Source: Branchiostoma lanceolatum
Lineage: Eukaryota; Chordata; Leptocardii; Amphioxiformes; Branchiostomatidae
Direction: 5' to 3'
Assembly (NCBI RefSeq): GCF_035083965.1
Contig: NC_089726.1
Coordinates: 6,639,501 to 6,703,500 of the forward strand
Length of the DNA stretch: 64,000 nucleotides
Positions 33,301 to 60,964 of the stretch are shown piece after piece. Below the pieces are notes generated by a model. That model saw nothing but the letters and a program-made list of their open reading frames with translations, was not told the DNA's origin and made no database searches. A program made the translations under genes and the position numbers. Each line of letters starts with the position of its first letter. Position 1 is the stretch's first letter.

Positions 33301-36300
33301 GGACGCAGCGACAGGAGAGGTACAGGTCGCCGCTATCTTGGACAGGGAAACAATTACGTCATACATCCTGGTCCTTACCGCACAAGATGGCGGCGCCTCA
33401 CCCGGACCCAAGACTGGCACCACGACTTTATCAGTCACCATGACTGACGTCAACGACCACGAACCGGTCTGTTCTCCGTCGTTCCACGCTGTGTCAATTT
33501 CTGAAGGTACGGCGGTGGGTTCCACGGTTACCACGGTAACGTGCACGGATGATGACGACGGTGACAACGCAGTTGTCGCCTACGCAATCACATCCGGGAA
33601 CTCCAATGACAACTTTGCTGTAAACATTGCGTCAGGTGATGTAACGTTGAAGAACAGTTTGGATTTAGAAGATGTTCGCACATTTACGTTGATCGTAGAA
33701 GCTTCGGATTCTGGTTCACAAATGAAGCTCACCGGGACGGCGACTGTACACGTCACGCTGACGAATGTCAACGAGTTTGCTCCGAACTTTACCGAAGCGT
33801 CGTACTCGTCTTACGTGAGCGAAAACGTCACAGTGGGAACGTCTGTAGGACAAGTGTCGGCCACCGACGGTGATGTGAACGAAGAAGGAGATGTGACGTT
33901 TTCTATCGTGTCGGGAAACGACGGTACCGTCTTTGGGATAGATTCTTTTACGGGTGTCATTTCTACAGCCACGGTGTTAGATCGGGAGACCACAAGCTCA
34001 TACACTCTTGAAGTAGAAGCAAGAGATGGCGGAGACTTTTTGGGAACTTATCAATCGTCCACCGCTACCGTTGATATTACTGTAGATGATGTCAATGACA
34101 ACCCTCCAACGTTTGATCCCGCCGCAGTCTACATCGCTGTTCCCGAGTCCGCGACGACCGGCGCGTCGATAGCCCAACTCAGCTGCTCCGACTCTGACGT
34201 GGGTGAAAATCAAGAGCTGACATACGTCATATCCGCCGGAAATGACGTCGGCCTGTTCAGCTTGTCGTCTGAAGGTTTGATCTCCCTTGCCTACGGTCTA
34301 GACTACGAGACGTCCGCAACTCACGTCCTGACGGTGGTGGCGACCGACGGGGGGACGTCACCGCAGCTGAGCGGCACGGCGACGGTCTACGTCCAAGTGA
34401 CGTCAGTGAACGAGCATGACCCAGTCTTTGACCCGGCGTCCCCGGCAAACGCGTCCGTAAGTGTTCATCAAAATATTAGTCTTTTCAATATTTTGCTAAA
34501 ATTTGTTCCCCCTCCCCCAAAACTGTATATTACAAGTCGATACTCGAAAACTTCATCCACTTCAAGTTCAATTTGTGGGCACTTTCGACGTCCCCACTCT
34601 GTAGCAAAGATGAAGAGTACAATAGAAATATACATATCTAACGCATTACTGATATGTATGATTTAGGTCGACGAGGACTCTGCTGTTGGTATAACAGTCG
34701 CCACCGTCTCGGCAACGGACGACGACGCCGGCACCGATGGCGAACTGACGTACACAATCACCGGTAGGTAGCCCATCTCATTCTTCAATCACAGGGACAG
34801 ACCTACATGCTGTGTTCGGGCTAACGTATCTTGAATAAATGCTATGTGTGCATGACGAAAGTCTTTAACTGGTTTGATTTTCTTCCCCAGAAACGAGTCC
34901 AGCGGGTTTTGCCGGACATTTTGCCATCGGCTCTAGCAGTGGTGTCATCAACATGGCTTCACCAATAGACTACGACACTATGGGATCCGACAAGGTGGCC
35001 TGCGGTTCCCTTGAATATATTCCATCTTCATTATTTTGTTTAAAGAAGTAGACTTAACCTCTTTCAAACTATGAATCCTTCTAGTAGCAAAGACGATTTT
35101 GTTCGCTACATTGGTCTTGGGACTAGTCAATGACAGTTTTGTTGTTCATTTCCGTAAGGTGGTGACCCTGACAGTGCAGGCGGCGGACGGAGCCTCGGGT
35201 GCCGACCAGCGTACCGCCAACACTACGGTGGACGTCACCGTCAACGACGTGAACGACAACAGGCCTACCTGCGTGGAGAGACTGGTCAGCGTCGTCATGG
35301 ATGAGAACACCGCCAACGGGACAGTGGTTAGTACGCGAAATTACAAGATATTTACAGTACTGTTCAGGGCACAATGATATGAACGTGATCTTAAATGAAG
35401 AAGAAACTCGTTGACGATGCCCGAATGTGGAAGGTACCATAAGAGATTATTTCTTTAATTCAAAATCTAAGTACTTTTATATCCACCTAGGTTGCCTCCA
35501 TGAACTGCAGCGACGTGGACACATCGACGCTACTGTCTTACAACGTCACTTCCGGAGACTCGGGCTCATTCCAAGTCAGCTCATCGGGTGACGTGTTCCT
35601 AGCTTCCGGTTAGTCATACAATGCTATCTATGTTTTAAATTAAAGCTGCAACGACAACGTTTTTCTTTTTCGCCTCAATTTGCTAGCCTGGAATGTCGAG
35701 TCTCCTCTCCTCTATTTGCGTAGAGGAGACTCGGAAGCTGTAATAGGTTTGGATTCCAGGCTTTCAAATTGAGGCGAAAAAGAATTTTGCATCCTAGTCC
35801 CTATGCTGGACGACAGGAGACAGGTTGTTTAAAGTGCTACTTTCCGATTCCAACGATAATGACCATGAGTAAGACATGCGTTTCCAAATACAAATGTAGA
35901 GCAAAAAGAGCAGTACGCAATGAATATGACTGTAAGCTACATTATCTGATGTCACCACACTGTTCCTCAAAGGTAACACGGTAGATTACGAGGGGATCAC
36001 CACCACGTACATCCTGACCATTGACGTCAGCGACGGCGAACATTCCACTGACGTCACCGTCAGCGTCGACGTACGGCCCGTCAACGAACACGACCCCGTG
36101 TTTACGTCAGAGTCGTATAACGTCAGCGTGCAGGAGAACGTGACGGTGGGGACGGGTCTACTCCAGGTTACAGCAAGTGATGCTGATAGCAGGATGGACG
36201 GTACGTACACTGCACAAAATCCCGTCTTTGAGCATATCTTAAAGCATGCGTAAAGATTCCATTTTTCCGTCCCTGAAGAATTTAGGGACCCCTTTTTCAG

Positions 36301-39300
36301 AATCAGTCGACAACCTTGCCGTAATGCCGTTGCTTCTTGATACATGTAATACAAATATGATGCCACGTTTGATGTTCAGTTAGTTAAACTAATGAATAAT
36401 ATGCGGTGTTCTCCAGGTGAGGTGACTTTCTCCATCGTAGCTGGAAACGAAGACGAAAAGTTTGCCGTAGACGCGACGACTGGAGCCTTACAAACCGTCG
36501 CACCGCTGGACAGAGAAACGACTTCCTCTTACACACTCTCCATCATCGCCCAAGATGGCGGCGTCTCTCCGACAAGAAGTGCCTCTACGACGGTTTTTGT
36601 TACGGTTTCGGACGTCAATGACGTCACACCTGTCTGTTCCCCGTCGTTCTATGCGGTGTCCGTACCCGAGGGCGCTGACGTCATCTCCTTTGTTGCCATG
36701 GTAACATGTTCTGACGATGACGTCGGTGAAAATGCAGAGTTGGACTTCAGCATAACCGCCGGAAACTCCAACGAGACGTTTGCAATCAACAAAACCTCTG
36801 GAAAGATCACTACAGCCCAAAGTCTAGACCTTGAAATCACAAGCTTTTACTCCTTGGAAGTCCAGGTCAGTGACTCCGGCGCGCAAAGCCTCACGGGAAC
36901 GGCGACCATTTACGTCACCGTCACGAACGTCAACGACTTTGCTCCGACGTTCAGTGAAAGTTCTTACTCCTTCAACGTCAGCGAAAGTGAATCAATCGGC
37001 ACAGAGGTAGGTCAAGTCGTAGCGAGTGACGAAGACACCGACGAAGAGGGTGATGTGACGTATTCGATTGCATCTGGCAACGATGGGTTAGCCTTTGGCA
37101 TAGACTCCGTGTCTGGGGTTATCTCCATCGCAAAAGACGTAGACAGAGAAGCTGTGGCTTCGCACAGTCTTGAAGTGTTAGCGACCGACGGCGGAGACTC
37201 TTTCGGGACGTACCGAAATGCAACCACGAGAGTCAACATCACGATCATCGACGAAAACGACAACCCGCCGACCTTCGACCCAGTCGTGGCGTACACTTCC
37301 GTCTTAGAGTCTACGCCGGAAGGGACGTCACTTCTACAGCTCAACTGCACTGACGTGGATGTGGACGCCAACGGAGAGGTCTCATACGTCATATCCGCCG
37401 GAAATGACGAAGGTGTTTTTAACATATCATCGGACGGAATGATCTTCCTGGACAAGGAGGCGGACTTTGAGACGACGACGTCATACATCCTAACGGTAGT
37501 TGCAACTGACGGCGGGACGCCACACCTCAGCAGCACGGCGACTGTACATCTACAGGTGACAGCAGTGAACGAGCATGACCCACAGTTTAGCCCTTCGACG
37601 CCGTCAAACTTTTCGGTAAGCGACAAAATGATAAATTCAACAGTAGTAGAAAGTGATGACTTATAGGTTTTAACCATCTTTATCCTTGCGAACCTTTTTC
37701 CTGCAGATTATTTTCATTGTCCCTGTGAATATTCAAATCATGATTTTCAAACAAACACAGATCAATGAAGACGCCGCTGTTGGGACGACAATCGCGGTTG
37801 TGTCAGCAACGGACGATGACCAAGGATCGCATGGAGAAGTGTCCTACACGATCACAGGTAAGAACGGCATCTTTGTTCGCGTTTGCTACAACTTCTCGAT
37901 ATGTGTGTCTGCCTTTTGTAATCCAAAACTTTGCTGGATATATTTTTGTTGTCCTTAGGTACGAATCCTGGTCTTCTATCGGGGCATTTCAGCATCGACT
38001 CGCAAAGTGGAGAAATTCAACTGGTTTCACAACTGGACTACGACACCATGGGTGATTCTAAGGTACATAGACATAGACTATGAATGTGGTTGTTTACGGG
38101 GTTGCAAGTTTCGTTAGCATTTGCATAAGCGGTCTCAATGAAACTCCTTGCAAGAGTGGTCCCTCTCTGACACCACGTAAAGATCTAAAATGATATTATG
38201 AAATATGTCGTAACATTTTCAGTATGTATCGCAATTGTACCTCCCGTCTTAAGGTGGTGACGTTGACAGTTCAAGCCGTGGACGGAGGTTCCGGAGTTGA
38301 CCAACGAAGTGCGTCTACGACGGTCAATGTCACTGTCAACGACGTCAACGACAACAGTCCCGACTGTGTGGAGAACCTTCTACTCGTTCAGGCCGACGAA
38401 AACGCGGAAAACGGAACTACGGTAAAGTGGCATAGTTTTTCACCCGACCACTGAGTGGTTGGTCTTCAGAACTAATATTCGTTATCTTTTGGTACGCTCC
38501 TTAGACAAATCTCACATCAGTCTTCCTTTACTTTATTGAATTTCAGGTGGCGACTCTAAACTGCTCTGACATTGACATAGGAACAAACCTGTCGTACAGC
38601 ATCATCTCTGGAAACTTCGGACCGTCGTTTGACGTAACCACGAGTGGCACTGTTGTCGTCTTGGCAGGTATGTATGCGTGTGAGAAATTTTGGGTTGTGC
38701 ACTTTATATTGTGTTATGTGTATGTACGTCGGTGTACATTGGTGATTAGACTCACTGAAGAGATACTCTTCCACTGGTCGTGACAGAGAAGACAGACGCT
38801 ATATACAGTATTTACAGGTTCATTGTATCAGAGAAATTTCCCTAGCTCTTTTCTACAAGCACAATGAACAATGAACCACGGCTTAACGTCCCATCCTGAT
38901 AAAGACTGCGACCCTTTCCAGTAGCTACACAGCCGGGATACGAAATCACAACTTCTTGGTCCAGAGGCAGGGTCCCTAACCAGTGGACTACGCACGATGC
39001 AGCTTGAAGACACTCAAAACATGGCAGTCATAACGGTGCTACTGTGTTGTTTTCTCTTGTCGCAGGACATACCTTGGACTACGAGTCAAACAACAAGACG
39101 TACTACTTGACCGTGGAAGTCAGCGATGGTGACCACATAGTTGACGTCAACGTCGACGTCGCGATCCTGCCCGTGAACGAAGACACGCCGTTGTTCTCAG
39201 CTGACTCCTATAACGTCAGCGTGGCCGAAAATGCTACCCTGGGGTACACCTTATTGCAGGAGACTGCCACTGACGCAGACGAGGGAGTAGATGGTGAGGT

Positions 39301-42300
39301 TTCGAAATGTCTTTGATTTAACGAAGCTGTGATTACATCCAAGGGGCACAGGCGTCAAAGACGGAAAGTCCCAGGCCTAGAATGGACATGCTTGCCTCTG
39401 TTCAGTATACAGTAGTAGCAATGCTACGATGGAGTAAATGATGCCTACATTTGTTTACTGCAGTATCAACTTGCTCAGTTTTTTTACACATTCCTGACGA
39501 AAAGACTGCTCTTGCTTATTGTTTAAACGGAAAACATTCCCTTCCACGCTACAGGGTTGATATCCTACTCCATTGCGTCAGGTAATGAGGCCGGCAAATT
39601 TGCCATGGACGGAACAACTGGCGCCTTGCGGACTGTGGGAGACCTTGACAGAGAAAACACTGCCAGCTATGTGCTGGTTCTCCTGGCAACGGACGGGGGA
39701 CAGAATCCTGGTCATTTGACGGGGTCGACAACGGTCTACGTCACCGTGACAGACGTAAACGACAACACAGCAGTGTGTTCGCCGGCCCTGTTGGCCCTGT
39801 CGGTCTCCGAGGGGGCGGCGGTAGGTTCTACAGTGGGAAGCGTCACCTGCACCGACCAGGACGATGGTATCAACGCGGTGCTGTCGCACACGATCATTGC
39901 GGGAAACACAAACAGCTCTTTTGCCGTGAATAACTCAACGGGAGACATTACAGTGGCATCTGCACTAGATTTAGAAGTGACGCCTACGTATATCTTGGAG
40001 CTCATGGTCACAGATGAAGGAGACCCGGTTCTGACTGGCAGCGTGACCGTCCACGTCAAGCTCACGGATGACAACGACTTTGCACCTACCTTCACAGGTG
40101 CCTTCTTCTACTTCAACATCTCAGAGGATGCCGCCATTGGAACAACACTTGGACAAGTACCGGCCACTGACCAAGACCTCTACGAGGAAAGCATTTCGTA
40201 CACTATTATCAGCGGGGACGACGACAACGTCTTTCGCCTGGACACACGCACGGGAACACTAAGTCTCAAGGACAACGTCGATCGAGAAACTACTGACGTA
40301 TTTTCTCTGGTTGTCATGGCAACAGACAGCGAGGACAGCTCTGGCGTTAAACACAACGTAACAGCATTGATAAGCATCACCGTGCTAGACGTTAACGACA
40401 ACCCGCCAGTGTTCGTTCCCCATGTGTACTACGTGTCACTGTTTGAATCTGCGACAATCGGAGCTGCAGTCGCACAGCTCACGTGCACTGACAGCGACGA
40501 CGGGACTAACGCGAATGTGACGTACCTCATTTCCACCGGAAATGACGCATTGAAATTCAACGTGACGTACGATGGTGGTGAGATCACTCTGCAGGACTCG
40601 TTGGACTATGAGACGAGCACAGAATATGTCCTGACGGCTACAGCATCGGATGGAGGGACTCCATCTCTGACTGGGACCGCCACGGTATACGTACAGGTTG
40701 TTGCCGTCAACGAACATACGCCGGAAATCATCGTTCCGACGGGAGGATACGATGTCATCATCTCCGAAGACGTTCCGATAGGAGCGTCGGTAATATCCGT
40801 GACAGCCGTGGATTCCGACTCGGGTTCCGACGGCACAGTCGTGTACAGCATCGAGGACGGAAACTCTGAGCAGAAATTTGTCATCGATGAGCTTTCCGGG
40901 GAGATAGCAGTCGCTTTGCCACTGGATAGAGAATCCACAGACTCCTACTCGCTGATCGTCAAAGCTATGGACAGTCCGTCAAATTCGTCACAGGCACTGA
41001 GCAATTTCACAACGGTGAACATCACAATAGAAGATATAAACGACAACCATCCAGTCTTCACGCCGTCCGTATACACCACTTCCGTGTTGGAAGGTGCGTC
41101 GGTGGGTTCACAACTTATACAGCTAACGGCAACTGATGCTGATCTTGGAAACAACACTGTGTTAGACTATGCCATCACTGCTGGCGACACAAACGGCACG
41201 TTCAACCTTAGCGGTGATATTCTCGTCCTCGCGTCTGGTTTGGATCATTCTGTACGAAGCTACTACTCGCTCACTGTGACAGCAACCGACCGCGGTGTCC
41301 CTCCACTTTCGTCAACGGCGAACGTCGTGGTCAACGTCCTGGAAGAGAACAACTACTCTCCGGTCTTCGACAACGGCACGAACACCGTTTGGGTCTCGGA
41401 GGACGCTGCTGTGGGGACGACGATATACAACGTCAGCGCTACCGACGCCGACGTCGGAGATGGCGGCGAGCTGACGTACGTTGTGACGTCTGACGAAGAC
41501 GCATTCGGGATAACGCTTGTTATAGACTCCGCAACAGGTGTTGTGACGCTGGGGTCGTATCTCGACAGAGAAACGATTGATGAATACGTCTTGAACATTA
41601 CGGTGTACGACGGCGAAGTGACTGACAGCGGCACCCTTAAAGACGCCATTGTCGTAACCGTCATTGTCACAGACGTGAACGACAACAAACCAACATTTAC
41701 ACAGCCAGTATACACTGTTTACATCGACGAAAACGTATCCGTCGGTTCAAACATTACGACCGTTGAGGCAACTGACCCCGACTTGAACGGAAATGGAGAG
41801 GTGACGTACTCGATCGTTTCCGGCGACGGCATGGCATACTTTGACATAAACTCTACCATGGGGCTGATTTCAACCAGTACAGACGTGGACCGGGAGACCC
41901 TAGCACTCAACAACCTCGTCATACAAGCGACGGACGGCGGGAGTCCCGCAAAATCGTCTCTCTGCAGAGTAAAGATATACCTTAACGACTTGAACGACAA
42001 CACACCGACATTCGTTCCTTTGGAATACGTGGTGAGCGTGTTGGAAAACGCAGCGGTGGGGACACTGGTGACTCCTGTACAAGCCCTGGATCCGGATGAG
42101 TCGACGAATGCGCTGCTAACGTTCGCCATCTTTGAGGGCGACGACAACAACCAGTTCACAATTGACTCTTCTACGGGAACAATCCAAACTGCGGGCACCT
42201 TAGACAGGGAGTCCATCGAGAGGTAAGGGCCAATCTTGAAATGAATGAGTGCTAACGTAAGGTATGAGCTTCTCTGTGATCAAGCCAAACGTGTATTCAT

Positions 42301-45300
42301 TGTCATTTTGACATCAAGTCATGGACAAAACCGTCCAGCAAATTTGTCTTTTTGAAGACGACTTCAACAACCCTTTGTGTCCATGGATCTAGAACACCAT
42401 CCATATGGTCATCAACACTCTTTCCTACATGTTCTAATTTCGTATTTTCCTTTGAAATACCACCCACAGCTACACGCTGACCATCACAGCAACGGACAGC
42501 GGCATCCCTACAAACCTTACCGGCAGTGGTACCGTCCTAGTCACCGTTCTAGACGTGAACGACAACACGCCTGTCCTCACGCAAGCCAGCTACACCGCGT
42601 CGGTCAGCGAGGGGGTCTCCGTTGGCACGTCGGTGGTTCAAGTCGTCGCGTCGGACGAAGACGTCAACGAAAATGCGGAGATCGCGTACAGCATTACATC
42701 TGCAAGCCAGGCCGGCCATTTTGAAATCGACGCTGCCACTGGAGTTGTACGTACTTTGCAAGCACTAGATCGGGAGGCTCTAGACTCGTACACTCTTACT
42801 GTCCAGGCCGCGGACAATGGAAACCCCTCATTGGCTAATGACACTACGGTTACCATTACTGTTGATGACGAGAACGACAACACTCCGGCGTTCGCCTGGA
42901 ATCTTTACTCTTTTACGTTGGAAGAAAATGTTGCCGGAGGCACGTCCGTTGGCGACGTTAGCGCCAGTGATGACGACATCAATTCAAACGCCGATCTATC
43001 GTTCTCTATCATCACAGACGATTCGCAACACTTTGTGGTAAACTCAAACACAGGGCGGATATCTACCAGCTCTACGGCCAACATCGACCGGGAGACCATC
43101 TCACAATACAGCATCACGTGTAGAGTAGAAGACTCCGGGACGCCATCTTTGTTCAGTGACGTCACAGTACAGATTACCGCCTCTGACGTCAACGACAACG
43201 CGCCAATCTTTAACAACAACGACACGCTGACGGCTTCTTTGGCAGAAAACGCTGAGCAGGGAAACACCGTCATAAAGGTCTCGGCAACAGATCTCGATGA
43301 AGGCACCAATGCTGACGTCATCTACACCATATCGTCTGATCCGGCAAAGAACGGAGCGAAGGCGACGCAGTACTTCCGAATCAGTGAAACCACAGGAGTG
43401 GTCACATTCAGAGAGTCTGTCGACAGAGAAACTGAGCCCTTCATCGCCTTCGTCGTCATAGCAACGGATGCTGGGTCGCCAAGTCTGTCGTCTGAAACTG
43501 ACGTCAACATCACTATTGCTGACGTCAACGACAACAAACCAGTGCTCGATCAGACGTTCTACAGTATCGAACTGTCGACGGATTTCGATTCGTCAAAGGC
43601 AATAGTGACTCTAACGGCAACGGACGCCGACATAGGAACAAACACGGAGATTACGTTCAGTCTGACCGAATCATCGACGAACTTCAGGGTCGATCCGACG
43701 TCAGGTAGGGGTAAAGTTCGTCAAGCTTCTCATAGTAATCGTAAAGCTAACCGACTGTTATTCTTACCAACTATATCAGATGAAAATGTTGATACAACTA
43801 AATTCCATAGGCTTCTACATACTGTGTAGTTCAATTCATCGGGTTGAAGGACACAATATAATTACTCTCCAAGCAGAGGTTGGTGGAGAAGATTGTGACC
43901 TTCTTATCATATACCCTGTCGGCACTCTATACGGGCCATATGATAAAAAGGTCACAATCTTCTCCACTAAGCTTTGCTTGAGGAGTAAATATTGGCACCT
44001 TTTGCTTCCTGAGATGCCAAGATGGCTGTATTGTACTAAAAAAATGTGAAATTAATATTACTCTCATTACACACGTTTTCAAGCAGAAATCTTGGTAACC
44101 AGTTCATTCACACATGCATACCCCCTCCTCCAGGTGTCATCACAAGACTGACGCTGTCGGCCGACACCAGATACGTCATCTACGTCAGTGCGAGTGACGC
44201 TGGGATACCTCCTCTGACGTCATCCCCGGTCGCCACCGTTCGGATCGACACCTTTGACCCCGTCGCAACTCTCGTCAGCATGGAGCTGACCATGACCGTG
44301 GACGAGTTTCTCGCGAGACAAGACGAGTTTTTGCAGACCCTCCAGACGGCCATCCAACCGAGCTGCACGTCAACCTGCACTGTTGGACTGTCTCATTATG
44401 CCGAAAGGGAGGTGACAACTTCGGCAAGAAGGCGCAGAGAGTTGCTTCAGATGACAACTTCGAACACAACGTACGTACAGGTTTACTTACAACACCTTTC
44501 GTGTCTACATATAAGTCAATGTCAGTGCTTTTTTGACATTTGGGCAATAGTTTTCACATTTGGTCGAAGAGCAACATGGGAGTGCAGCTTGGAAAGATGT
44601 CAAATGGTGATTGACAAAAAAGCAGCGGATGCTGTCTGAAACGTCCGTTTACAAATCCAGTCCAGTTACTGAATTTCTAACATTCATAGACGATGTCATA
44701 TAGTCTTTGATAGGTTTAAAGGTAACACAAAAAGGGTAAGATTAATTAAGGGGCTTCACAGATTAATGTTAGGCGATGCGTAATTTCTCCCAGTATGTCG
44801 AATAAAGACCCAGCAAATACCCATTCGACTCCACATTCTATGCAGTCATTGACGAAAGAGAGCGGATGGTATCTAAAACGTCTAGCCATTAGCAAAACGT
44901 ATCCAGTCGCTTGGGTAACTTTTGTATTGTGTTCCGTATGACCTTGATGTCTAACCTTCATCGACGTTGCATCCATGTAATTATTTTAGGACTAACTACG
45001 TGACAGTGTACGTGTACGTGGAGACGTCCAACGCCACGACAGACTTCATCACCGGTCTGGGTGAAGACAAGACGTTCCTGCCGGCATCCAGGGTACTGGA
45101 GATGTTCCAGGCTGACGACGGGGCTCTACTGTCAGGTGATATTGGGTCGACTCTTTGATGTCGAAGCATATAAAAGTTATCATTTTAGAAAAGAGATTAA
45201 TGTTTTCCAACTGACACATTTTCACTGAGACGCTACCCCACCAAATGATAACGTCTAAAGAGAAAAGGTGACAGCAGGCTGTTTGAGAGCCTACCAATGC

Positions 45301-48497: not shown

Positions 48498-49226
48498 GAA
48501 AATAGCCATGTATACAACAGATGTAAAAGTACATGTATTGGTAATTGCAACATTTATATTTTGCTGTCAACGGTTAATTGTACCTTTTTTTGTTGTGCAT
48601 ATTTAGTAAGATACATTTGATCGTATCAATAAGTCTGGGTGCGACTGCCATAAGATTATCAGGAGGATAAAGCGCGAGTTTATAGAATAAACCTCAAATA
48701 TTTATGAATGACTGTCACGAGTTATTCATTTGACACAACATTTGTTACACACCGGTATTGTTAACAACTGTATTTGATTCAGCAACACATTATGATTACA
48801 ATTGATACGAATTGTCCGCAGGAAGCAATCATCGGTGTAATAATTATAGTGTTTGCGGTGTGGCTAAGGTGTTTGATACCCTCTTTAACTACCGACATGC
48901 CAAATATCAGACAAATCCATCAAAAGGATCTTGATTTACAGGTGCGAAGACACAGACCCGGACAGAAACAAGTTGTCAAAGTATGGAAGCCTCATATTAG
49001 CAAAGAAGGCTATTGTAGCATTTGCTCATAAACTATGTTTCCAAATGACGCAAAAATGAAATTCCCATCATTCATCACTACGGAATTATAGTCGTTTCTT
49101 ATCAATTATGCAAATTAGGTCTTCATTTGCATAAGTGATATCTATCGATATTCCTCTCATTAGTTACTGTAGCAGTAGTGAGCAGTGACATAATGGTACA
49201 CTGTTCGTTTGCTAAGGGCTGTAGAA
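48498..49226. other. Convergent spacer after the cadherin gene
   Basis: Contains the cadherin 3' UTR with AATAAA at 48686, and a fragment of the AT-rich repeat family near 48890-49165 (ATTATGCAAATTAGG, CATTTGCATAAG). The minisatellite follows at 49227. The 3' UTR of the oxidoreductase, if it extends past its stop, must run through the minisatellite toward this spacer. Confidence 0.55.
48686..48691 (+). terminator. Probable polyadenylation signal of the cadherin gene
   Basis: AATAAA lies 189 bases after the cadherin stop codon, at a usual 3'-UTR distance. It is the first canonical hexamer seen on the plus strand after the stop. Confidence 0.55.
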
Positions 49227-49974
49227 GAGCTTAGCTATAGGAGCCATCCGGATGTATGGTAATGACTGTCCTGTAGTCGAGCTCAGCTATAGGAACCATC
49301 CGGATGTACAGTAATGACTGTCCTGTAGTCGAGCTCAGCTATAGGAACCATCCGGATGTATGGTAATGACTGTCCTGTAGTCGAGCTCAGCTATAGGAGC
49401 CATCCGGATGTATGGTGATGACCCTGTCCTGTAGTCGAGCTCAGCTATAGGACCCATCCGGATGTATGGTGATGACCCTGTCCTGTAGTCGAGCTCAGCT
49501 ATAGGAGCCATGCGGATGTATGGTGATGACCCTGTCCTGTAGTCGAGCTCAGCTATAGGAGCCATCCGGATGTATGGTGATGACTGTCCTGTAGTCGAGC
49601 TCAGCTATAGGAGCCATCCGGATGTATGGTGATGACCCTGTCCTGTAGTCGAGCTCAGCTATAGGAGCCATCCGGATGTATGGTGATGACCCTGTCCTGT
49701 AGTCGAGCTCAGCTATAGGACCCATCCGGATGTATGGTGATGACCCTGTCCTGTAGTCGAGCTCAGCTGTAGGAGCCATCCGGACGTATGGTGATGACCC
49801 TGTCCTGTAGTCGAGCTCAGCTGTAGGAGCCATCCGGACGTATGGTGATGACCCTGTCCTGTAGTCGAGCTCAGCTGTAGGAGCCATCCGGACGTATGGT
49901 GATGACCCTGTCCTGTAGTCGAGCTCAGCTGTAGGAGCCATCCGGACGTATGGTGATGACCCTGTCCTGTAGTC
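49227..49974. repeat. 52/54-bp minisatellite derived from the oxidoreductase 3' end
   Basis: Fourteen head-to-tail units begin at 49227, 49279, 49331, 49383, 49437, 49491, 49545, 49597, 49651, 49705, 49759, 49813, 49867 and 49921. Units are 54 bp, or 52 bp where a CC is missing. On the minus strand a unit reads [17 protein letters not shown] plus TGA, the exact last 18 codons of the oxidoreductase. The gene itself uses the unit nearest its body (stop at 49927-49925). The other 13 lie after the stop. The five units nearest the stop (starts 49705-49921) share GTCCGGACGTA/CTGTAGGAG-type variants, so spread was local. Confidence 0.93.
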
Positions 49975-52900
49975 GAGCCTGCTCAGCTGCAAACACCAGC
50001 AGGTGACTCTGCAGGGTGTCCTGTGGTCCAGTCAGTACGGCAGAACTGTCACCGCTCTGTAAGGACATTTCATTAAAAGCATGAGGCAGTGAAGTTCATT
50101 CTCTAGAGTCCTTAGAAAGAAAATGCTTCAAAAGACAACATTAGAACAAAAATTTGAGTTAAGACATCAAGAAACCATCAGATACTATGATGAATTCTTT
50201 TGTAACTACATGACAACAACTCACTGTACTTGCTTGATAACACATTGCAACTGAGGTACCAGGCTTGTCAAGGGTTAAACAGTGTCCAGTTGTTGTTGAC
50301 AGCTGACTTTACACTTGATAATTGATTAAAACAAGTAATTCATCAGCTAGGCTGATTCCTGGTAGTATGTAGAATTTAACATGGTGTATTCCGTATCACC
50401 CAAGGTACCAGTCTGACCACGGGTCAGATCCCCCAATAGTCGAAGGCCGGATGGCAATCCGACCCGCTGGCAGGCTTGGACCAAGGTAGATTTGGAACAA
50501 ATTGATCAAGTTGTTATAAACTGTATTAACAGCATTGACTCCAACATCCAAAACCGGTTTTTGAATTTCCGACAGCGGTGCAACTGGCACATGCGAAGCG
50601 CATTCGAATCATCCTGGCCCAGGTATGACATAAACACATCTATATTCTACTGACATGCTTATAAATACCAACCTATAGTCTGATGTATTGAGCATTTGGC
50701 TGTAAGCTTTGCTTCTCATTGTTTCACACGTTTCACTGTTACAATTATACCCTTACCTGAACAGCCCTGACAAAGGCATCTATGAGGAAGAAGTCTGCAC
50801 CGCCGTGCATTCCACGCATCATGTTAGGGGGCGCAGTTTCACAGCGGTGCTCCGTTGATTTCTGTGTCAGGAAGTCATAGACATACACGGGGCCAGGACC
50901 AGAGCAGCGTAGTTCCCCCTGGATGGAAGGACACAACAGGAGATGAGAAAAAGAACAAGCATAAAATCATAGTTATACAACAAGCTCTTCTGTTGTATTT
51001 CAGGAAGTCATATAAGTTGCATGTATAGACATACACTGTGCCTGCACCTGAGATGAGCTACTTGAATATAACATGAACAGGAACACTTCATACAGCCAAG
51101 CTATTCCATATTCTGTGTGTTCGTAAAAGAAAAAGAAACGTCTTCATTTACTTCAGAGTTCCAAATCTTTACATTCAAGCATTTCATATTTAACTCAAAC
51201 ACATCACACATTCACATAAACTTGTTGCCGGAGAGATTTCTGATGTTAGAATTTTTAGGCTTTTCCTGGAACATTTCAATACTTGTACCGTTACCTTTGT
51301 GCCAGAGATCCTAGTCTGTCTCTCACAGATCTCCTGAGTGAAGGCCACCATGTTGAAGGAAGCTGTCTGGCCTCCATCAAACTGGAAGTTCACCACCTAA
51401 AAATAACAAGAATGCTCATGCTTCAAATTTGCTTTAGATGTAAGACCATGTACTGGCTGACATATAAGCTATCCTCATGTCTGAATTAGTTTCTACCCCA
51501 TCATAGGTTTTGCAAGTCTGCAGGGTGCTTTTGCTGGAGTGAGATTCATATATTCATTTGTTCAGTGTTGGCCAATCTGGTCTCAGGGGCCTGGACCTGA
51601 GGAAGCATGTTTCCTTCCTGTTTCAGCACGGGCAATAGGGTACGGTATTTATGTTGGGTAACCGCCGCGGTGCATGTTTTCGCTTAAATGCTCCTGTCGC
51701 TCACTCCGGAAATGCCCCACCCCTCAGACAGACTCCCCGCTCGTGCCTTCGGCATCACTTCGGGTTTTGCTCGGAAGCTTGGCACGGCTGATCCCCGCGC
51801 CGAGTACTTTGTCACGATCGGAACTTCAGCAGCTATTCAACGACAATACCTTTGCCTACCACCTGTGGTTTCAGTAGCACTGGGTGTATGTTTACAGCTC
51901 TTTGACTTTAACCAACGAAGGTACCCCCTGAACATGGGACCCCCATTTTACGTTCCTTCTGAAAGACAGGTGCAGCCCTATTAACTGAGATGCCCTTCCC
52001 GGGATTGCACCGTGGTCTCCCGATTACCAACTAACTGAAATGAAGAGCTTAACAATCAGAGGCTGCTACCAGTTGAGCTACAGCTAACAGAAAGGGAGTA
52101 CTATAATCCAGTTTTAGTCTTTATTTCATTCTTCCAGATCATCAAGTGTAACATATCCTGTACTCATATCAGCTGGACATAACATAACATAATAAACATC
52201 TCCATGTCTCTGGTTATGAAATTAGCCAATGTATAAGGAGGTTGTTAGATATATAAGAAAATGTACCTGATTGGAAACGACGTCGTTGTCACACTCGTAC
52301 ACACAGCGTCCGTACGGCCCAGTTCTCAGTGCCTCGGTAAGGTTCTCCATGTCCACTGGCTCCTGGGGGCACACCACACTGACTGGCCAGCCGGTATGAC
52401 CCTGGAAGGACACACAGAATGAGGCATGATTACTTTGTTGTCTTAAACATGCAACATTTCACCGCAAAAGTGACACCTACATCGGCCACATACAGCAAAG
52501 AGAAGCAGCTGATAGGCACGGAAACGTATACGAAAAGCTTTAATGTCCAACATTCAAAGAAATCTTTGTTAGTGGGTTATTTTCCCAGACCATAAAGTAT
52601 AACCATATAATGTCACCTGTTGGACCATCTTCATGTAGATCATCTTGGCAGAATAAGGACAGGTGTTCTCCACTTGGCAGTCCAGACACCTGCTGGCTGC
52701 ACCTGCTGGCTGGAGGAAACAAAAATACCTCCTTCTACCAAAGTTTTTTAGTTACATCTTTGTAATCCTGCACTAGTTGTAATGGCCCATTGTTGAATTG
52801 TTACATGTGACATTGTATAAGCAGGATTTTTCAAATATTACAAATTCTCTAAATGCAATACTTCCTGCAACAGCAAGGTGAAGATAGTGTCCTGTTCCAT

Positions 52901-55900
52901 TTCTCATCTTCAGGACATAAAAAAAATTCATGTACACAATGTTTCTGTTACAGTAATACAGTAATACAGTACTTTGGAAGGAAAGTATTCTGCATTTGTT
53001 GAAGAGTTAGCTTTCGGCTATAGGAATTGTGCTTTGCAATTATTAGAACGTATAAAGTTAGTTGTTGTGACGTCTCCAAAGATGAAGTTTTTACCTTGTT
53101 CTCAGGCTTGAAGTGCGTGAGACTTCCAAAGGAAGACACCTTGACACACCTGTACAAATAGACAAATGCTTTCATAAGTCTGATTATGGTATCAATGTCT
53201 ACCTTTGCAACACCCCCAAAAGCTGCCTTTCTTTTAGCGTAGTGCTTTAACTTTAAAGCCCTAAAGCTGCGCAATGTGATGGTGGACCAAGGCAGCCATG
53301 AAGCACAATGTGTAGATTTTACATTGTCACCACAATTTCAAAAGACCAACCAACCTACAAAATGGAGTAATGACAGAGTATCTGCTGGCAACACAGAGAA
53401 ATTAGCAGTTTAAACACCTAAAATCACCAAACATTGAGAGAAGGTAATAAGATCAGATGACAGCTGAGACCGAGAGTTATGTCAGCTCTCATAATTGTTA
53501 TGTCAGCTCTCATAATTCAAACGAGTACCCTAAGACCACCACTGCTAATGCAGCATCAGCAATCCCTGGAGGCATGCACACTTCAGATATCCCGGTATTC
53601 TAAACACTGTGTCAGGAAGTCAGATAACATTACATGTATAGATGTACATGGGGGTCAGCACCTGAGATGAGTTATATAACAAACTCGTACACTTCATATC
53701 CAGCCATATTCTGTGTGCTAGTGAAAAAAAAAAAACATCTTCATTTACTTCAGAGGTCTAAATGTTTACATTAAAGTATTTCATTTCATACACTCAAGCA
53801 CATCTCCCCTTCACAAAATTACTGTGTTGATATTAGGCCTCAATAATACAATTTTTTAAAATGTAGCAGTCTCAGAGTACCCAGTGGAAATATGAGAGTT
53901 GACTTTAAGACTATATGAATTTCAGCAACTTGTGTGATGTGTTGGAGAGTTTGACAGGCAAAAAAAGCATCCATCACCAAACCTTGCACCACTGAGCCAG
54001 TAGCGAATGAGGTCAACGTCGTGGCAGCTTTTGGCGAGAAGCGAGAAGCTACTGCCTGCTGTGTTCCGCCAGTTTCCCCGCACGTAGGAGTGCGCAAAGT
54101 GCCAGAACCCCACCTACGAGTCATGCAAGGGACAATTTTTAATGATTATTCCTAAAAAACTAAAAAGACAAGAGGCTAGTTCAAACCTAACCTTGACTTA
54201 GCGAGCCAGTAGGAAATGAGGTCGACATCGTGGCAGCTTTTAGCAAGAAGTGAGAAGCTACTCTCTTCTGTTTTTCTCCAGTTGCCGCGTACAAAGGAAT
54301 GTGCAAAGTGCCAGAATCCCACCTAGGGTTGAGCAAGGAAGGATTGTCATTGAGAATTACACTGTCATGATCAATCAATCAATCAATTCAATTCAATTCA
54401 ATCAATCAATCAAACACCAATTCAATCAATCAAACACCAATTCAATCAATAAATCAAACTTGAAATCTGCTAGTGGTTGTATCATGTAACGTCACATGTA
54501 GATGGAAAACTGTGATGCACATTCTACAGCAGTGTACATAATTCTCATCTTATTCAAAGGACACCATAGAACTGAATAGATTTACAAATGCAAGAAAAAA
54601 TTGTTCTCACCGGTTCCATGTGCTGGATGTGAACTACGTCTCCGATGACTCCACTGTCAATCAGTTCCTACAAAACACAATCAGGATAATTGTCAATATT
54701 GAACAACAGAGGGAACATGACTAGGTCATTATGATTGACTAGGTCATTATGGTTCCCTCCCAAAAAAGGGGAAAGCTTCTCATATCATGGAAAATATCAC
54801 AAAGTTTGAACAAAACAAAGTGATGTATTTTCTGTTTGAGTCCAGACATTTGATTGCATCATATCAACTTAACATGGAATTAAGTTACTCATTGTCATCC
54901 TTAATTATTACAATAAGAATTTTAAAAGAATTTTTTAAAACTCGAAGACGGTATAAACAAAAGGAGGCTGAAGACTAGATCTGCTTCTTGAAGTTTAACA
55001 GTTTATTGAAATGTGTGCATGTTGTTAACAACATTGTTTAACTTTTAGCACTATTGATAGTTATCTGACCTTGATCTTCCTGACAGGTGGAAAATATCTC
55101 AGCACGTGGCACACGGACAGGATGACGTTGTTCCTCTTACAGGCTGACACAATCTCACGGCAGTCCTCCTCTGTAACCTGGGAAAGTGTATGGTATCACA
55201 GACTGTATGTAAGATGATTCCACCTTGTCACATACTCTAAAAGGGGATCCAGAATGTTTGCAGGGATCTAATTTTGCTGTAGTAAAGGAACTGGCAGGCG
55301 GGCAGAAGACAGAACAAAAACGTTTGTGGTAGTTTTAAGTTTGTGGTGAAGAGGCCACCTCAAAAACTGTGAACACAAAGCCTCTGTAACATTTCCCCAT
55401 TTTATATTACATTTCTTATTACAGTTCATGACTGTGTGTGCCTGCCATTCTGAAAAAGATGGTGCATAAAGAGATCTGGAATGCAACATCCCCCAGTATT
55501 ATTCACTCCTGCATATGTGAGTAATACCTGGGGCCCTGGGGGGGAGGGGGGGGGGGTGCTGCACAAGAGATCACGCTGTTTTTTCAAAGTGACAGATACA
55601 TGTAACCTGGTGGTTACTAGAACTGGATTTTTAGCTGTTGTAGGCCATACTGCACAGAGTAGCATCGCTACATTCACTATGATTTATATTTTGTAAAGGA
55701 AGTACTTTCACAAAGCTGCTGTAAATTTCAATTTTGCGGTCAATATCACAGATGACATAGTTTAGCTAATTTCAAGTCAAACCCTTGTGCATGAAAGGAC
55801 CACTGGGGAAGATGGAGAGGTTTGACAAGAGATCCATATAAGTGCTTCAGCTGAGTTGGTGTCATAGAATAAAATCAGTTACCTATTCATTTCATTGTGA

Positions 55901-57964
55901 AACATACAGAGCGACATGGCTTGCAGGTGTCCTATTCTGAGAGACAAAACAAGCAGTTTTTTTCTTTTCTATGTTGGTGAGCAAACTTAATCCCCTTTAG
56001 ATACGCTGTCTTCAAAAGAGTTATCTTTACACAAACTACGTTCAAGGAATATACGCACTGCCATGGGTTTCTCCAGTAGAATATGGTAGCCTCGGTCAGC
56101 GAACGCCACGGCAGGAGCCTTGTGCAGCTGATCTGGGGTTGCTATGACAACACAATCAGCAAACTTCTCCCTCTCCGCAGCTTCCTGCCAGTCTGGACAA
56201 ATTGATGTGGTTAAGACATTGATATCCATGTAACATAATTCCACCAGGGTACATAATTCCGCCACCATGAAAATGTCCATCCAAACGGTTCTCCAACCCA
56301 ACGTCCCAATGATGAACCCAACATCCCCTGTGTAATACACTCCTGTATATCTAAACTGTGCATACCTCCCTAGAGATGTTTCAAACTCACTGTTTTTCAA
56401 AGTGGCAGATTTAAGTATCCTGGCAGATTAATGTTAATGGATGTTATATATGTATCAGGAAATGCTGATGGTACAGTTTATGGCAGGATGGAGAAGTAAA
56501 ACTGGCAACCCCGTGCATGAGCCTCCTTGGTATGAGGGAGCGTCAGGAATAAGCCTCAAGCATATGGATAGTCAAGGCACCCTAGCTAATTTTTCTACTT
56601 CAAAATGACAACTACAGACAAAAAGGAAAATAGAAATAGGTAATTTAAGCAAATTATCCTTTGAAATGACTTAATGACATAAAATGCATCTCAGTCACTA
56701 AAAGGCTTTTCCCAACTAATTGGAACCAGCAGGAGATCAACTGTGAGGCTACTACCAGTTGAGCTACAGGGACATTAAAAAGACTGAAGGTACCAAGGGG
56801 GTAGTTTTACCTGTAAAGACATTCTCCTGAGGAATGTTGTACTGCTGCTGAAGACGTTGGCACCTGAACAGCCGCGGATCCGCAACACCAACCACCTGCA
56901 AAATGAAAGGAAGAACATATCACTACTGACATGTCCCCTTGTTGTAAGCGTTAATGAAAAACCTTGGTTACCCGGCCATATGTATCAAATTCTGTGGATC
57001 CATGGCTGGGGGTTCGATCCACAGGTCAGCCCCAGCTTGGACATGTTGTAAGGGATTGCATTTGTCATTTCGGATGGTGACGTAAAGCTAGCCCCAAACT
57101 TCAGCACGTAAAAGAACATAACACACTTATCGAGAAGAGTGGGGGTGACCCGGTGTGCTTGGCTCAATATGCAAGCCATAGCAAAGCTGCATTTCACTTA
57201 CTACCACTAGCTACTTGAATTGAAAAAGCATTATGCTTCACCTCAATTGAGGATGACTGCTTCACCTTACTAATCACTACTTGGAGTGAAGAAAGTAGAA
57301 ATGAGGGTCCATCCATGACCATTTGAAAAAAAAGGAAGTTGATGAATTAATTTTTGAAGCGACTTAATTTTGTGATAGAAGGAAAAAGTGTTTTAGTTCA
57401 CAGTTAAAACAATTCTGTAGTACGATACATTGGAAATGTATATTTGTGGTGTCATGCATTCTCGATGGAGGGGTCACCACAAAATCTGCGAAAATAAGAC
57501 CACCGAAAACATTTAAAGATTTACGGTGCATCCAATTGATGTGCTTTTATATAACCAAATCAAACTAGAGGATACATGTATAAGCAGGTGATTCTGTATC
57601 TGTATCTGTATCTATATAGCCGGTATAACCACCATTCGGCGTAACACACCAGCTTGGCAGGCACGCGGCGCAGCAGCAGCTGGTTATATTACGCCAAACG
57701 ATCTGTCACGTCTAACCTTCGCATATCTAACTGCATGCATTGCTTAAAGCTGTCTAATGTCATTGGATGCTTCCACGGTACTTGGTTGCAATGAGTTCCA
57801 CTCTACAATCATTCTAGGAAAATACGAATTTTTGAACACATCAATCCTAGGTTGATTGTTCCTGTTCTACTTACCTGGAAGTTCTCACTGTTGTCGAGGG
57901 AGAACCTCGAATAGACCTCCCCTCTGCTCCCTGCACCAACTATCAGGGCCCGGACTGGAGCCAT
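49925..57964 (-). CDS. Gfo/Idh/MocA-family NAD(P)-dependent oxidoreductase (427 aa, 12 exons plus one alternative exon)
   Basis: Two-domain sugar/polyol-type oxidoreductase with a Rossmann N-terminal domain. Exons: 57964-57875, 56895-56811, 56192-56059, 55177-55070, 54667-54611, 54322-54192 (or alternative 54113-53983), 53149-53095, 52709-52617, 52401-52267, 51396-51295, 50918-50757, 50056-49925. They total 1,284 nt. The dinucleotide motif is GAGSRG (residues 10-15) in [10 protein letters not shown]. The catalytic Lys is in LLEKPMA (Lys100), and the family's HxxD is in CHDVDLI (His189). [10 protein letters not shown] and a cysteine cluster [14 protein letters not shown] (228, 231, 237) follow. 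Closest in feel to the bacterial YteT/StrI-like branch; substrate unknown. No signal peptide, so probably cytosolic. The last 18 codons have been amplified downstream as a minisatellite. It is divergent from the first Kelch gene. Confidence 0.9.
51890..52083 (-). mobile_element. Second tRNA-derived SINE type
   Basis: The minus-strand head GCTGTAGCTCAACTGGTAGCAGCC is a strong A box; GGTGCAATCCCGGG follows as a B box. A partial relative, GAGGCTACTACCAGTTGAGCTACAGG, lies at about 56743-56770. Both are in oxidoreductase introns. Confidence 0.6.
53983..54113 (-). other. Oxidoreductase exon 6b (alternative copy, downstream)
   Basis: 131 nt with the same phases as exon 6a, acceptor CTCGTAG and donor AG|GTTTGG. 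Encodes [18 protein letters not shown] and continues through [14 protein letters not shown]. It is separated from exon 6a by only 78 bases. Both copies are open and intact with usable splice sites. Including both would shift the reading frame, so they should be mutually exclusive. Confidence 0.88.
54192..54322 (-). other. Oxidoreductase exon 6a (alternative copy, upstream)
   Basis: 131 nt, phase 0 in and phase 2 out, with acceptor CCCTAG and donor AG|GTTAGG. Encodes [18 protein letters not shown] and continues through [14 protein letters not shown]. It contains the family's HDxD active-site region. 35 of its 43 full codons give the same residue as in exon 6b. Confidence 0.88.
54370..54465. 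repeat. Imperfect CAAT microsatellite
   Basis: Runs of ATCAATCAATC and ATTCAATTCA with two copies of AAACACCAATTCAATCAAT, in oxidoreductase intron 5 just upstream of exon 6a. Confidence 0.8.
57005..57160 (+). mobile_element. SINE fragment in oxidoreductase intron 1
   Basis: Shares CAGCACGTAAAAGAACATAACACACTTATCGAGAAGAGTGGGGGTGA with the full SINE copies, so a 5'-truncated member. Confidence 0.6.
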
Positions 57965-59152
57965 GACCTCACAAGTGGGGTCAGATCAGTGGGCAGAGTG
58001 TCAAAATCTAACATAAAATGGAACGGACAGAATTGAACAGGTTAGAGCAGTTCACTTGATGATTTGTTCAGACTGAACAAATCATCAAGTGGCATTGCGT
58101 GGCGTAAATGTAGGGGGTTTTGCCCAGTAACAAGAAGTCCCCGAGTTCCAATCCTCCGATATGCCCTGCCAAAATACCCTTGGGAATTTTTTCACTTCTT
58201 ATACTTAGGTTCCCAAGTTGTGCGATTTATGGGGAGTTTGAGCCAAACCTCCAGCATGTAAAAGAACTATTATTGAAAAGAGAAGGGGGCCGAACCTCCC
58301 GGTGCATGTGAGTGGATCAAATAATTCTGCCCGGATATGCAGCTTTTACTCTTCAGTACAAACCTGATGTGTTACGCCATGAGGTGGTTTAAATAGCGGG
58401 TATGAAATACTAATATACAACACAAAATTGTTATTCATTAAAAGAGATCGATGTGGCACGTGGAATCTGGTAAAAGGATCAATCCATCAACAAGACGAGA
58501 TAATCTGTGTTCTGTTTCCACCATTTACATACCTGCTGACTGTACACTTTGTTCTGTTTCGAACCCAACTGTGCTGAGATCAGTATGTCAGTATGTCCCG
58601 AGGCTATGGCTAGTGACACGCCCCACACGTCACAAGTTATGTGGTTTCCACACGTCTCGAGTTACGTGAGCTAAATCATTAACAGTGCGATCAACATTAA
58701 CTCGTGATTCGCCAACATACAATAAACATTGAGCCAAAATCTAGCAGACGACAATGCAAAGGGTAACGTTGTATTACGTATCAAATAAGCAAATGACAGT
58801 ATTCAGAGCCGCCAGCAGATCGTCAAAGCAAGTTCTCACTACGTTTGAAGCCATCAACTATTACAGATCGTATCAAATAAGACTTAAAGTGTTACGTTAC
58901 CAAGTTAGTGTGTCCAAGGAGGTTTGGTGTGTCGCTGCTTGCTGAACGCGGAAGTAAGTAATGGTTACAACTAGATGAACTGTACGACTGTAGTTTGCAG
59001 GGGTGTTATACTTTGGTTCTTGTATTCGTATCATTCATTGGCATCAATATGGTATGGATATAACTTTAGATAGCTAACAAACATATGTGATCTGAATTAA
59101 AATACTGCAACACGAAAGTCAGTTGACCGAGGCAAATAAGTATTCATAGAAT
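57965..59152. other. Divergent spacer between the oxidoreductase and first Kelch gene
   Basis: 1.19 kb between two start codons facing away from each other. A tRNA-derived SINE fills about 58085-58405. The stretch 58867-59038 is similar to 61883-62034 upstream of the second Kelch gene, including GGAAGTA...GGTTACA, CTGTAGTTTG, GGGGTGTTAT and CGTATCATTC, so this looks like conserved promoter DNA carried in the duplication. Confidence 0.6.
58085..58405 (+). mobile_element. tRNA-derived SINE upstream of the first Kelch gene
   Basis: Head GTGGCATTGCGTGGCGTAAATGTAGGG and B box-like GAGTTCCAATCCTCC; body CAGCATGTAAAAGAAC and AAAAGAGAAGGGGGC; tail CTTTTACTCTTCAGTACAAACCTGATGTGTTACGCC. Confidence 0.75.
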
Positions 59153-60964
59153 ATGAATACCCCCCCCTTTAACTATTTGGCACAGCCCAATACCACAAGA
59201 CTCATCATCATCATGGCTGCCGCAGAGCAAATCCCGCGTTCCTACAAAGACTGTGACTTCAGGGTCGGGTTTTTTGACACCATTGGTGACTTACAGAAAG
59301 CTGGAATACTGCAGGATGTTGTCATTGAGGTCGAGGGCCGCCAGTTTCCCTGTCATCGGCTTGTCCTGTCGGCGGCCAGCCCCTACTTCAGGGCCATGTT
59401 TACCAGCGACATGGCGGAGAGCCGACAGAAGACGGTTGTTTTGCAAGGTTTGGATGCTGTCATGTGGGAAGAGATCCTCAGTTACATCTACACAGGAACC
59501 CTCCATGTGTCCCTGGACAAAGTACAGCCCCTGTACCAGGCAGCCGACCTCCTCCAACTCGACTATGTGAGAGACACATGCAGCAGCTACATGGCCATGA
59601 GCGTGGAGAGCTCCACATGTGTGGGCCTGTACAAGTTTGCTGATGTCTACTCTGTAGACGTTGTTCTGAACCGTAGTTTACCGTGTATCTGTAGGCGCTT
59701 TGCTGAGGTTGCCTTCACCGAGGAGTTCTACAGCCTGAGTGTAAATCAGCTGACTGAGATCATCAGCCACGATGAGCTGGATGTTAAAGAGGAGACAACA
59801 GTCTGGGAGGCTGTGGTGAGATGGGTGCAGCACAGCAGGGAGGACAGACTGCACCACCTACCCAGTATCCTCCTTCACATCCGATTCAACCTGCTGACCT
59901 CGGATGACACAGCAGCCATCCTGGAACACCCCCTGATCAGGGAGAATCCTGGAACTTCTGAGGTTAGGAATCTGGTACTGAGGGGGACCTCCAACCAAAA
60001 GAGGAGAGTTGGGATGGACGCACAGGAAATGGTCCTGCTTTTTAGGACTGTGGAAACTACCCCAAACACAACTGAAATGCACTGTATGGACCCTGGGTCA
60101 GGATATTACATCAAGTACAGTTACAACCTACCTACGGTCATGGCGGCAACAGTTACCAGTGAGAATGATATATACATCCTCGTTGAAGAGTCATATGACC
60201 AGCTGTCCTTGCTTCAGTACAACCATATGGAAAATGCCTGGGTACAAAAGTCTTCAATAGACAGGAACAGAAAGGAAGAGCCCTTTGCAATTGATAAGTC
60301 TTTTGTATATCTTCTTGAAGTTGATGGTCATTTCTATTACCTACATGTAGCTGTCAATTGGAAAGTGAGAAAAGGAGTGTTCGTGATGATGAAAAAGTTT
60401 CAGTGGCTCACGAACCAATGGCAGGACTGTTCAAAGCCTGAGCATGGCGGACTGGGTGGTAGTACAGTAGCCGTGTCGTGCGGTCAGTATATCTATCTCT
60501 TCACAAACACTGAAATGCATCGCTATGACCCAAGTCAGGACCAGTGGAGCAAGGGAACCCCGCCAAGAACCATTCCTCAGTTCTCGACAGCCGTTGCCAT
60601 AGGAACGGAGATCTTCTGCGCAGATCTGCCCTTTAAAAACACGGTGGTGTACGATGTTGAGACAGATAGCTGGTGCGAGCTTCCAGGGTGGTTGGACCAA
60701 ACAATCGATAAATTATGTCCCATTCTCTGTACAAATGGAGGCCAGCTGCATGCATTGGTAGAACTGAACCCGTACAATGATGACGACTCAGGAGGAGGTG
60801 GTCAGCATGCATATGTGTATGACAGGCTTGCAGGTGCTTGGAGGGACCTGCAGGTCAGCCTGCCTAGTTGGAATCATCAGGATTTGTGCGCGCATGTGTA
60901 CCCTGTGGCACGCATGTACACGCACCTACCAGACCGGGATGACGATATGGACACAAGGAATTGA
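59153..60964 (+). CDS. BTB-BACK-Kelch protein, first copy (603 aa, intronless)
   Basis: Kelch-like protein, typically a CUL3 E3-ligase substrate adaptor. BTB/POZ spans about residues 46-153, including VVIEVEGRQFPCHRLVLSAA, SPYFRAMF and the helix LDKVQPLYQAADLLQLDYV. BACK spans about 158-260, including FAEVAFTEEFYSLSVNQL and TVWEAVVRWVQHS. Degenerate Kelch repeats run from about 290 to 590, with motifs such as MHRYDPSQDQW and VVYDVETDSWCELPG. No intron is present. The first ATG (59153) is used here; an internal ATG at 59213 (MAAAEQ) has a better context and is also plausible. The second copy shares both. A KLHL number is not assigned. It is divergent from the oxidoreductase at 57964. Confidence 0.93.
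   Translation: MNTPPFNYLAQPNTTRLIIIMAAAEQIPRSYKDCDFRVGFFDTIGDLQKAGILQDVVIEVEGRQFPCHRLVLSAASPYFRAMFTSDMAESRQKTVVLQGLDAVMWEEILSYIYTGTLHVSLDKVQPLYQAADLLQLDYVRDTCSSYMAMSVESSTCVGLYKFADVYSVDVVLNRSLPCICRRFAEVAFTEEFYSLSVNQLTEIISHDELDVKEETTVWEAVVRWVQHSREDRLHHLPSILLHIRFNLLTSDDTAAILEHPLIRENPGTSEVRNLVLRGTSNQKRRVGMDAQEMVLLFRTVETTPNTTEMHCMDPGSGYYIKYSYNLPTVMAATVTSENDIYILVEESYDQLSLLQYNHMENAWVQKSSIDRNRKEEPFAIDKSFVYLLEVDGHFYYLHVAVNWKVRKGVFVMMKKFQWLTNQWQDCSKPEHGGLGGSTVAVSCGQYIYLFTNTEMHRYDPSQDQWSKGTPPRTIPQFSTAVAIGTEIFCADLPFKNTVVYDVETDSWCELPGWLDQTIDKLCPILCTNGGQLHALVELNPYNDDDSGGGGQHAYVYDRLAGAWRDLQVSLPSWNHQDLCAHVYPVARMYTHLPDRDDDMDTRN

Follow-up and report, generated by a model that had tools for sequence, protein, structure and literature searches.

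The window analysed here, a stretch of 64,000 nucleotides of lancelet DNA, carries on its minus strand, from position 57964 to position 49925, a gene that we modelled from the sequence with 12 coding exons and with introns that are all of the GT-AG type. Exon 1 (57875..57964, 90 nt) contains the ATG start and the beginning of an NAD-binding Rossmann domain; it is followed by exon 2 (56811..56895, 85 nt), exon 3 (56059..56192, 134 nt), exon 4 (55070..55177, 108 nt) and exon 5 (54611..54667, 57 nt). Exon 6 is present in two copies, exon 6a (54192..54322) and exon 6b (53983..54113), which are separated by an intron of only 78 nt (54114..54191). Downstream of them lie exon 7 (53095..53149, 55 nt), exon 8 (52617..52709, 93 nt), exon 9 (52267..52401, 135 nt), exon 10 (51295..51396, 102 nt), exon 11 (50757..50918, 162 nt) and the coding part of exon 12 (49925..50056, 132 nt), which ends with a TGA stop. 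With either 6a or 6b alone, the predicted product has 427 residues and the C-terminal end RPDGSYS. The last 18 codons of exon 12 are at the same time the first unit of a minisatellite (49219-49978) with 14.2 copies of 54 nt and 96% matches, and its units, read on the minus strand, repeat these 18 codons including the TGA stop. A tblastn search detected seven further copies of the C-terminal 17 residues in the minisatellite, with 88-100% identity. Thus, the stop is followed by an array of copies of the gene's own C-terminal coding sequence. An interspersed repeat of about 210-220 nt occurs twice in the same orientation and with 75% identity, in the intron between exons 10 and 11 (51000-51219) and in the intron between exons 6b and 7 (53612-53818). 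On the plus strand, several long open reading frames (28115-43829) have what we take, judging by their motifs, to be cadherin-type repeats of a large cadherin gene, and a single open reading frame of 603 residues (59153-60964) presumably encodes a BTB-Kelch protein, again judging by motifs. Scans of the 64-kb window for tRNA genes and Rfam families found nothing.

The 12-exon gene is predicted to encode an NAD(P)-dependent oxidoreductase of the Gfo/Idh/MocA family. Pfam PF01408 matches residues 5-126 of both isoforms with 83.1 bits against a cut-off of 24, and the C-terminal alpha/beta domain of the family is also found by Pfam in the encoded protein. The family's catalytic lysine lies in an EKP motif encoded by exon 3; this motif and H189, the histidine of the catalytic helix, are present in both isoforms and invariant in homologues, the EKP motif in all 36 that were aligned for it. 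The usual catalytic aspartate of the DxxxH motif is absent; alignments put either Lys186 or Ala185 at its position, and K186 is invariant in 64 of 64 homologues. An aspartate is typical of the family and not required, and RgNanOx and YjhC are reported to have a histidine at the same place (PMC7535918). Nine NCBIfam models match the 6b isoform, with which alone this search was made, all of them far below their cut-offs, the best being UDP-N-acetylglucosamine 3-dehydrogenase with 101.4 of 450 bits; therefore, these models name no substrate for the enzyme. In exon 8, residues 228-237 include cysteines that are invariant in the subfamily (C227, C230 and C236 in the archaeal homologue L001) and form a CLDC...CPYS motif. 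These cysteines perhaps make up a metal site, and we know of no such motif in other Gfo/Idh/MocA enzymes.

The earlier note on this DNA had singled out exons 6a and 6b as a mutually exclusive pair. The coordinates it gave for the pair (53983-54322), the length of 131 nt for each copy and the distance of 78 nt between them are exact, and each copy is preceded by AG and followed by GT. Likewise, its count of 35 identical residues in 43 was confirmed on the 43 full codons, which leaves eight replacements. The two copies share 104 of 131 bases, begin in phase 0 and end in phase 2, and each is continuous with exons 5 and 7. The claim that exactly one of them must be used holds in part: the reading frame breaks when both or neither are included and is restored in exon 7 after 6a or 6b, but this is a condition for a full-length protein and not an observation of splicing. 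Joint inclusion of 6a and 6b leads to a stop at codon 287, which by exon lengths falls in exon 8, and skipping of both leads to a stop at codon 174, in exon 7 by the same reckoning. Both stops precede the last exon junction by a long way. By the usual rule, mRNAs with such stops are targets of decay, so that double or empty mRNAs of this gene would be expected to be degraded.

Between the two copies 27 of 131 bases differ, 5, 6 and 16 of them at codon positions 1, 2 and 3, respectively, and 12 codons differ silently against eight by replacement. These differences correspond to a dN of 0.127 and a dS of 0.930 by the NG86 method, and to a dN of 0.121 and a dS of 1.289 by YN00, with dN/dS at 0.09-0.14. 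A self-BLASTN comparison aligns the pair with an E value of 7e-31, and in a search of 50000-58000 for repeats of at least 40 nt the pair is the longer of two direct-repeat families (141 nt at 80%). In gene direction, the ungapped similarity extends at most 3 nt before and at most 7 nt after the exon, and the introns flanking 6a and 6b match near chance, at 18 of 60 positions upstream and 20 of 60 downstream. When both isoforms were compared with the whole window by tblastn at an E value of 0.1, no third copy of the exon and no other duplicated coding exon were found; the matches were restricted to the known exons, with 6a and 6b matching each other, and to the copies of the end of exon 12. That the pair is an artefact of assembly, such as two haplotypes placed in series, is a reading we dismiss as extremely improbable: lancelet genomes are highly polymorphic and the comparison rests on a single assembly, but similarity that stops at the exon edges, with introns at chance, is strong evidence against a doubling of alleles during assembly, and a dS near 1 does not fit two alleles either.

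The pattern of these differences points to coding constraint on both copies. In 2000 simulations in which all 27 differences were neutral, a mean of 18.0 codons were replaced, and in another 2000 in which one copy was neutral and the other changed only silently, the mean was 15.7; none of the 2000 runs in either set had eight or fewer replaced codons. In addition, the neutral copy gained a stop in 67.5% of the all-neutral and in 62.4% of the one-neutral simulations. With so few replacements in none of the simulations, both copies are maintained coding exons, and each has thus remained coding ever since the duplication, which was not recent. A dead remnant that still resembles an exon would be expected to behave like the one-neutral-copy simulations, which never matched the data, and since both copies are open and both have splice sites, we regard it as highly unlikely that one of them is such a remnant.

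For a comparison with homologues, prokaryotic genomes were scanned with the 6b isoform alone; 80 loci were retained, which are up to 58% identical in their best segment, and 64 of them were aligned with both isoforms after 16 had been dropped for scores below 250 bits or lengths below 380 residues. Thorarchaeota account for many of the best matches, with 49-58% identity in their best segment, and Ktedonobacteria, Lentisphaeria, Planctomycetes and others are interspersed among them (L001, L002, L003, L009, L010, L011, L015, L024, L029 and L048), and such a patchy spread may reflect horizontal transfer. Within the exon, 14 positions are at least 95% conserved in the 64 homologues, among them H163, H166, S167, R170, G171, W173, K186, C188, H189, D190 and D192. 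Exons 6a and 6b agree at all 14, which fits the earlier suggestion that the swap would tune the activity rather than abolish it. Variability in the family is higher at the eight differing positions than at those that 6a and 6b share (mean entropy 1.65 vs 0.70; Mann-Whitney p 0.007; 64 homologues), even though position 199, where all 64 have a gap, was assigned an entropy of 0, a choice that works against the difference. A whole-protein profile made from the 64 homologues, with the window sequences excluded, scores the two isoforms almost equally, at 609.4 bits for 6a and 607.6 bits for 6b. On the exon segment alone, 6a scores 91.8 and 6b 89.3 bits against 89.7-111.8 for the 64 homologues on which the profile was trained, so that both isoforms stand at the low end of the family and 6b just below all 64. 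By these scores, there is no clear difference in decay between the two copies.

How inclusion of both exons could be prevented is suggested by the intron between them. At 78 nt it is an outlier, the other introns of the gene ranging from 215 to 979 nt, and a limit of about 50 nt has been proposed for the distance from donor to branch point below which splicing is sterically hindered (PMC7969005; PMC5740500). With a simple ad hoc pattern, the best branch-point candidates, which lie past the last internal AG of this intron, are 46, 49 and 53 nt from the donor, and two weaker candidates, at 31 and 39 nt, are each part of an AG dinucleotide. The best candidates thus straddle the proposed limit, and steric exclusion in this intron is plausible, if marginal. 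An incompatibility of splice-site types was set aside because all introns are GT-AG, by a criterion that does not separate out minor-type GT-AG introns. Two alternative acceptors within the 78-nt intron (TTTTAG ending at 32 and at 40) were rejected as coding acceptors as well, since the added intron sequence would put an in-frame TAG triplet directly before 6b. By a simple U1 pairing energy the donors of 6a (-6.5) and 6b (-6.2) are alike and middling in a gene whose donors range from -3.2 to -13.7, and the acceptors have 15 and 13 pyrimidines in 20 positions, respectively; by these two scores, the splice sites of 6a and 6b give no sign of a regulated choice. Competing RNA pairing between introns showed no excess either, 15, 15 and 9 of 20 shuffles being as strong for the three intron pairs.

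Both exons might also be used with exclusivity left unenforced. In that case the 5-6a-6b-7 and 5-7 products would be made freely and removed by nonsense-mediated decay, and the gene would also control its dose by unproductive splicing. The positions of the two premature stops agree with this, as do the borderline branch-point distances, and among 377 human clusters whose exon lengths are not multiples of three, 83 are reported to have reads that join the alternative exons (PMC5740500). However, an intron of 78 nt, far below the 215-979 nt of the others, suggests that its length has been held down, and we consider unenforced exclusivity improbable, though by no means as remote as a dead exon copy.

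To place the exchanged residues, we used a structural model of L001, which is 55% identical to the lancelet protein (pLDDT 92.6). It has a strand at 150-158, a helix at 161-169, a loop at 170-181, a second helix at 182-198 and a further strand from 202. The phase 0 end of exon 5 coincides with the end of the first of these strands, and exon 6 covers residues 159-202 of the lancelet protein (159-201 of L001). In the model, therefore, exon 6 is one structural unit made of a helix, the active-site loop and the catalytic helix. From 6a to 6b the differences are F168Y, K175N, E177A, E178G and S195R, together with residues 199-201, so that the loop reads KTEE in 6a and NTAG in 6b and the helix end ISYWLAKS and IRYWLSGA, respectively. 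Three of the eight differences (175, 177 and 178) are clustered within four residues of the loop, directly after R174, which is the same in both forms and is followed in 6a by one positive and two negative side chains and in 6b by none. The other five lie outside the loop, one in the first helix (168) and the rest (195, 199-201) in the distal part of the catalytic helix and the linker.

Characterised relatives indicate what such a change could mean. In an alignment from a PDB sequence search with the 6b isoform only, W173-R174 is paired with W162-K163 of RgNanOx, whose catalytic His178 is matched by H189. Lys163 of RgNanOx is reported to bind NAD+, a modelled complex has it also binding the carboxylate of the substrate, and the K163A mutant is described as inactive (PMC7535918). 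In Pl-scyllo-IDH, Arg178 lies in a flexible loop that covers the active site and is reported to bind scyllo-inositol and NADH; with the R178A mutation, kcat/Km drops from 190 to 12 for scyllo-inositol and increases from 17.4 to 49.5 for L-glucose, and the mutagenesis primers printed in the same paper, as we read them, place this arginine, too, directly after a tryptophan (PMC5969746). These two enzymes and levoglucosan dehydrogenase differ from the lancelet protein in being bacterial, hence without spliced isoforms, and they are 18-24% identical to the protein of our gene model. With a change of charge right after the kept R174, a shift in substrate preference or in the hold on the cofactor would be the most specific hypothesis for the loop differences, and the replacements at 168, 195 and 199-201 could possibly change stability or subunit contacts. 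We give about even chances to a real difference between the isoforms in substrate or cofactor handling, which the earlier note had proposed. The two isoforms could instead be near-equivalent in function, the duplicate being kept by history or by tissue-specific control of splicing and the replacements being tolerated. This alternative, which concerns only the last step of the interpretation, agrees with the greater variability of the differing positions and with the occurrence of most of the 6a and 6b residues among the 64 homologues, where F and Y at 168 are split 44 to 20 and both residues of K/N at 175, E/A at 177, E/G at 178 and S/R at 195 are found. On the other hand, the loop that contains residues 175-178 sets substrate preference in a relative (PMC5969746), and three of the eight differences cluster there; we think near-equivalence a serious possibility, though not the likelier outcome.

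Taken together, coding constraint on both copies, their near-equal fit to the family, the frame incompatibility and the short intron make mutually exclusive exons the best explanation, as had been proposed, and exons 6a and 6b probably give two active proteins. Tandem duplication of one exon would have produced 6a and 6b, and mutually exclusive splicing would now yield two full-length, catalytically competent Gfo/Idh/MocA isoforms. Exclusivity would be due in part to the 78-nt intron, whose shortness would make it hard to join 6a to 6b, and in part to nonsense-mediated decay of double or empty products. The swap would exchange a single block in which the flexible loop that covers the active site is flanked by the first helix and the catalytic helix. 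Catalytic residues would be kept, and the changes at 175, 177 and 178, beside an Arg174 expected to contact substrate and cofactor, would be accompanied by those at 168, 195 and 199-201. Depending on tissue or stage, the choice of exon would then probably shift the substrate preference, the kinetics or the hold on the cofactor.

The earlier note had found the swapping of a catalytic exon unfamiliar in this family. In metabolic enzymes in general, swaps of active-site exons are known, most sharply in COQ-2, and the novelty is smaller than the tone of the note suggested; for Gfo/Idh/MocA enzymes, none of the literature matches listed, judged by title and the start of the abstract, describes mutually exclusive exons, which is weak evidence since the slash in the family name probably blocks matching. 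In C. elegans, exons 6a and 6e of coq-2 are described as mutually exclusive and as changing a few active-site residues so that the substrate is switched (PMC8659336). The likeness is thus a mutually exclusive exon pair that alters few active-site residues of a metabolic enzyme. However, COQ-2 is a prenyltransferase and not an oxidoreductase, and RNA use and the switch of substrate are reported for it, whereas the lancelet gene is known from its sequence alone. In the human enzymes KHK, ACOX1, PKM and PFKP an exon is likewise duplicated at or beside the active or a regulatory site, with the ligand residues mostly kept in both copies; these belong to other enzyme families, and the PKM and PFKP isoforms are reported to differ at an allosteric-site residue (PMC9741552). 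Exons 4a and 4b of OGDH are mutually exclusive exons of a metabolic dehydrogenase with a donor-to-branch-point distance below about 50 nt, but the human branch points have been mapped, at 25-41 nt, whereas the lancelet gene has only candidates at 46-53 nt (PMC7969005). In an amphioxus, exons IIIb and IIIc of Fgfr are reported to be mutually exclusive and derived from tandem duplication (PMC5703972), although Fgfr is a receptor and not a metabolic enzyme. The lancelet oxidoreductase gene represents a known kind of gene device, here in the Gfo/Idh/MocA family, for which the matches listed showed no earlier report. It is tempting to speculate that splicing swaps the whole active-site module to switch between two substrates or reaction directions across tissues, as in COQ-2, and that this would be the first such case in the family; we offer this only tentatively and think it rather doubtful.

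We consider the finding to be of moderate interest because the swapped block comprises the substrate loop and the catalytic helix in an enzyme family that is widespread. Gfo/Idh/MocA enzymes exist in very large numbers, and their assignment in animals is poor. If the two isoforms differ in substrate, they would form a natural pair with only eight differing residues around one pocket, which would provide a clean test of which loop residues determine the choice of substrate, and the gene would be another example of a metabolic enzyme diversified by splicing instead of gene duplication.
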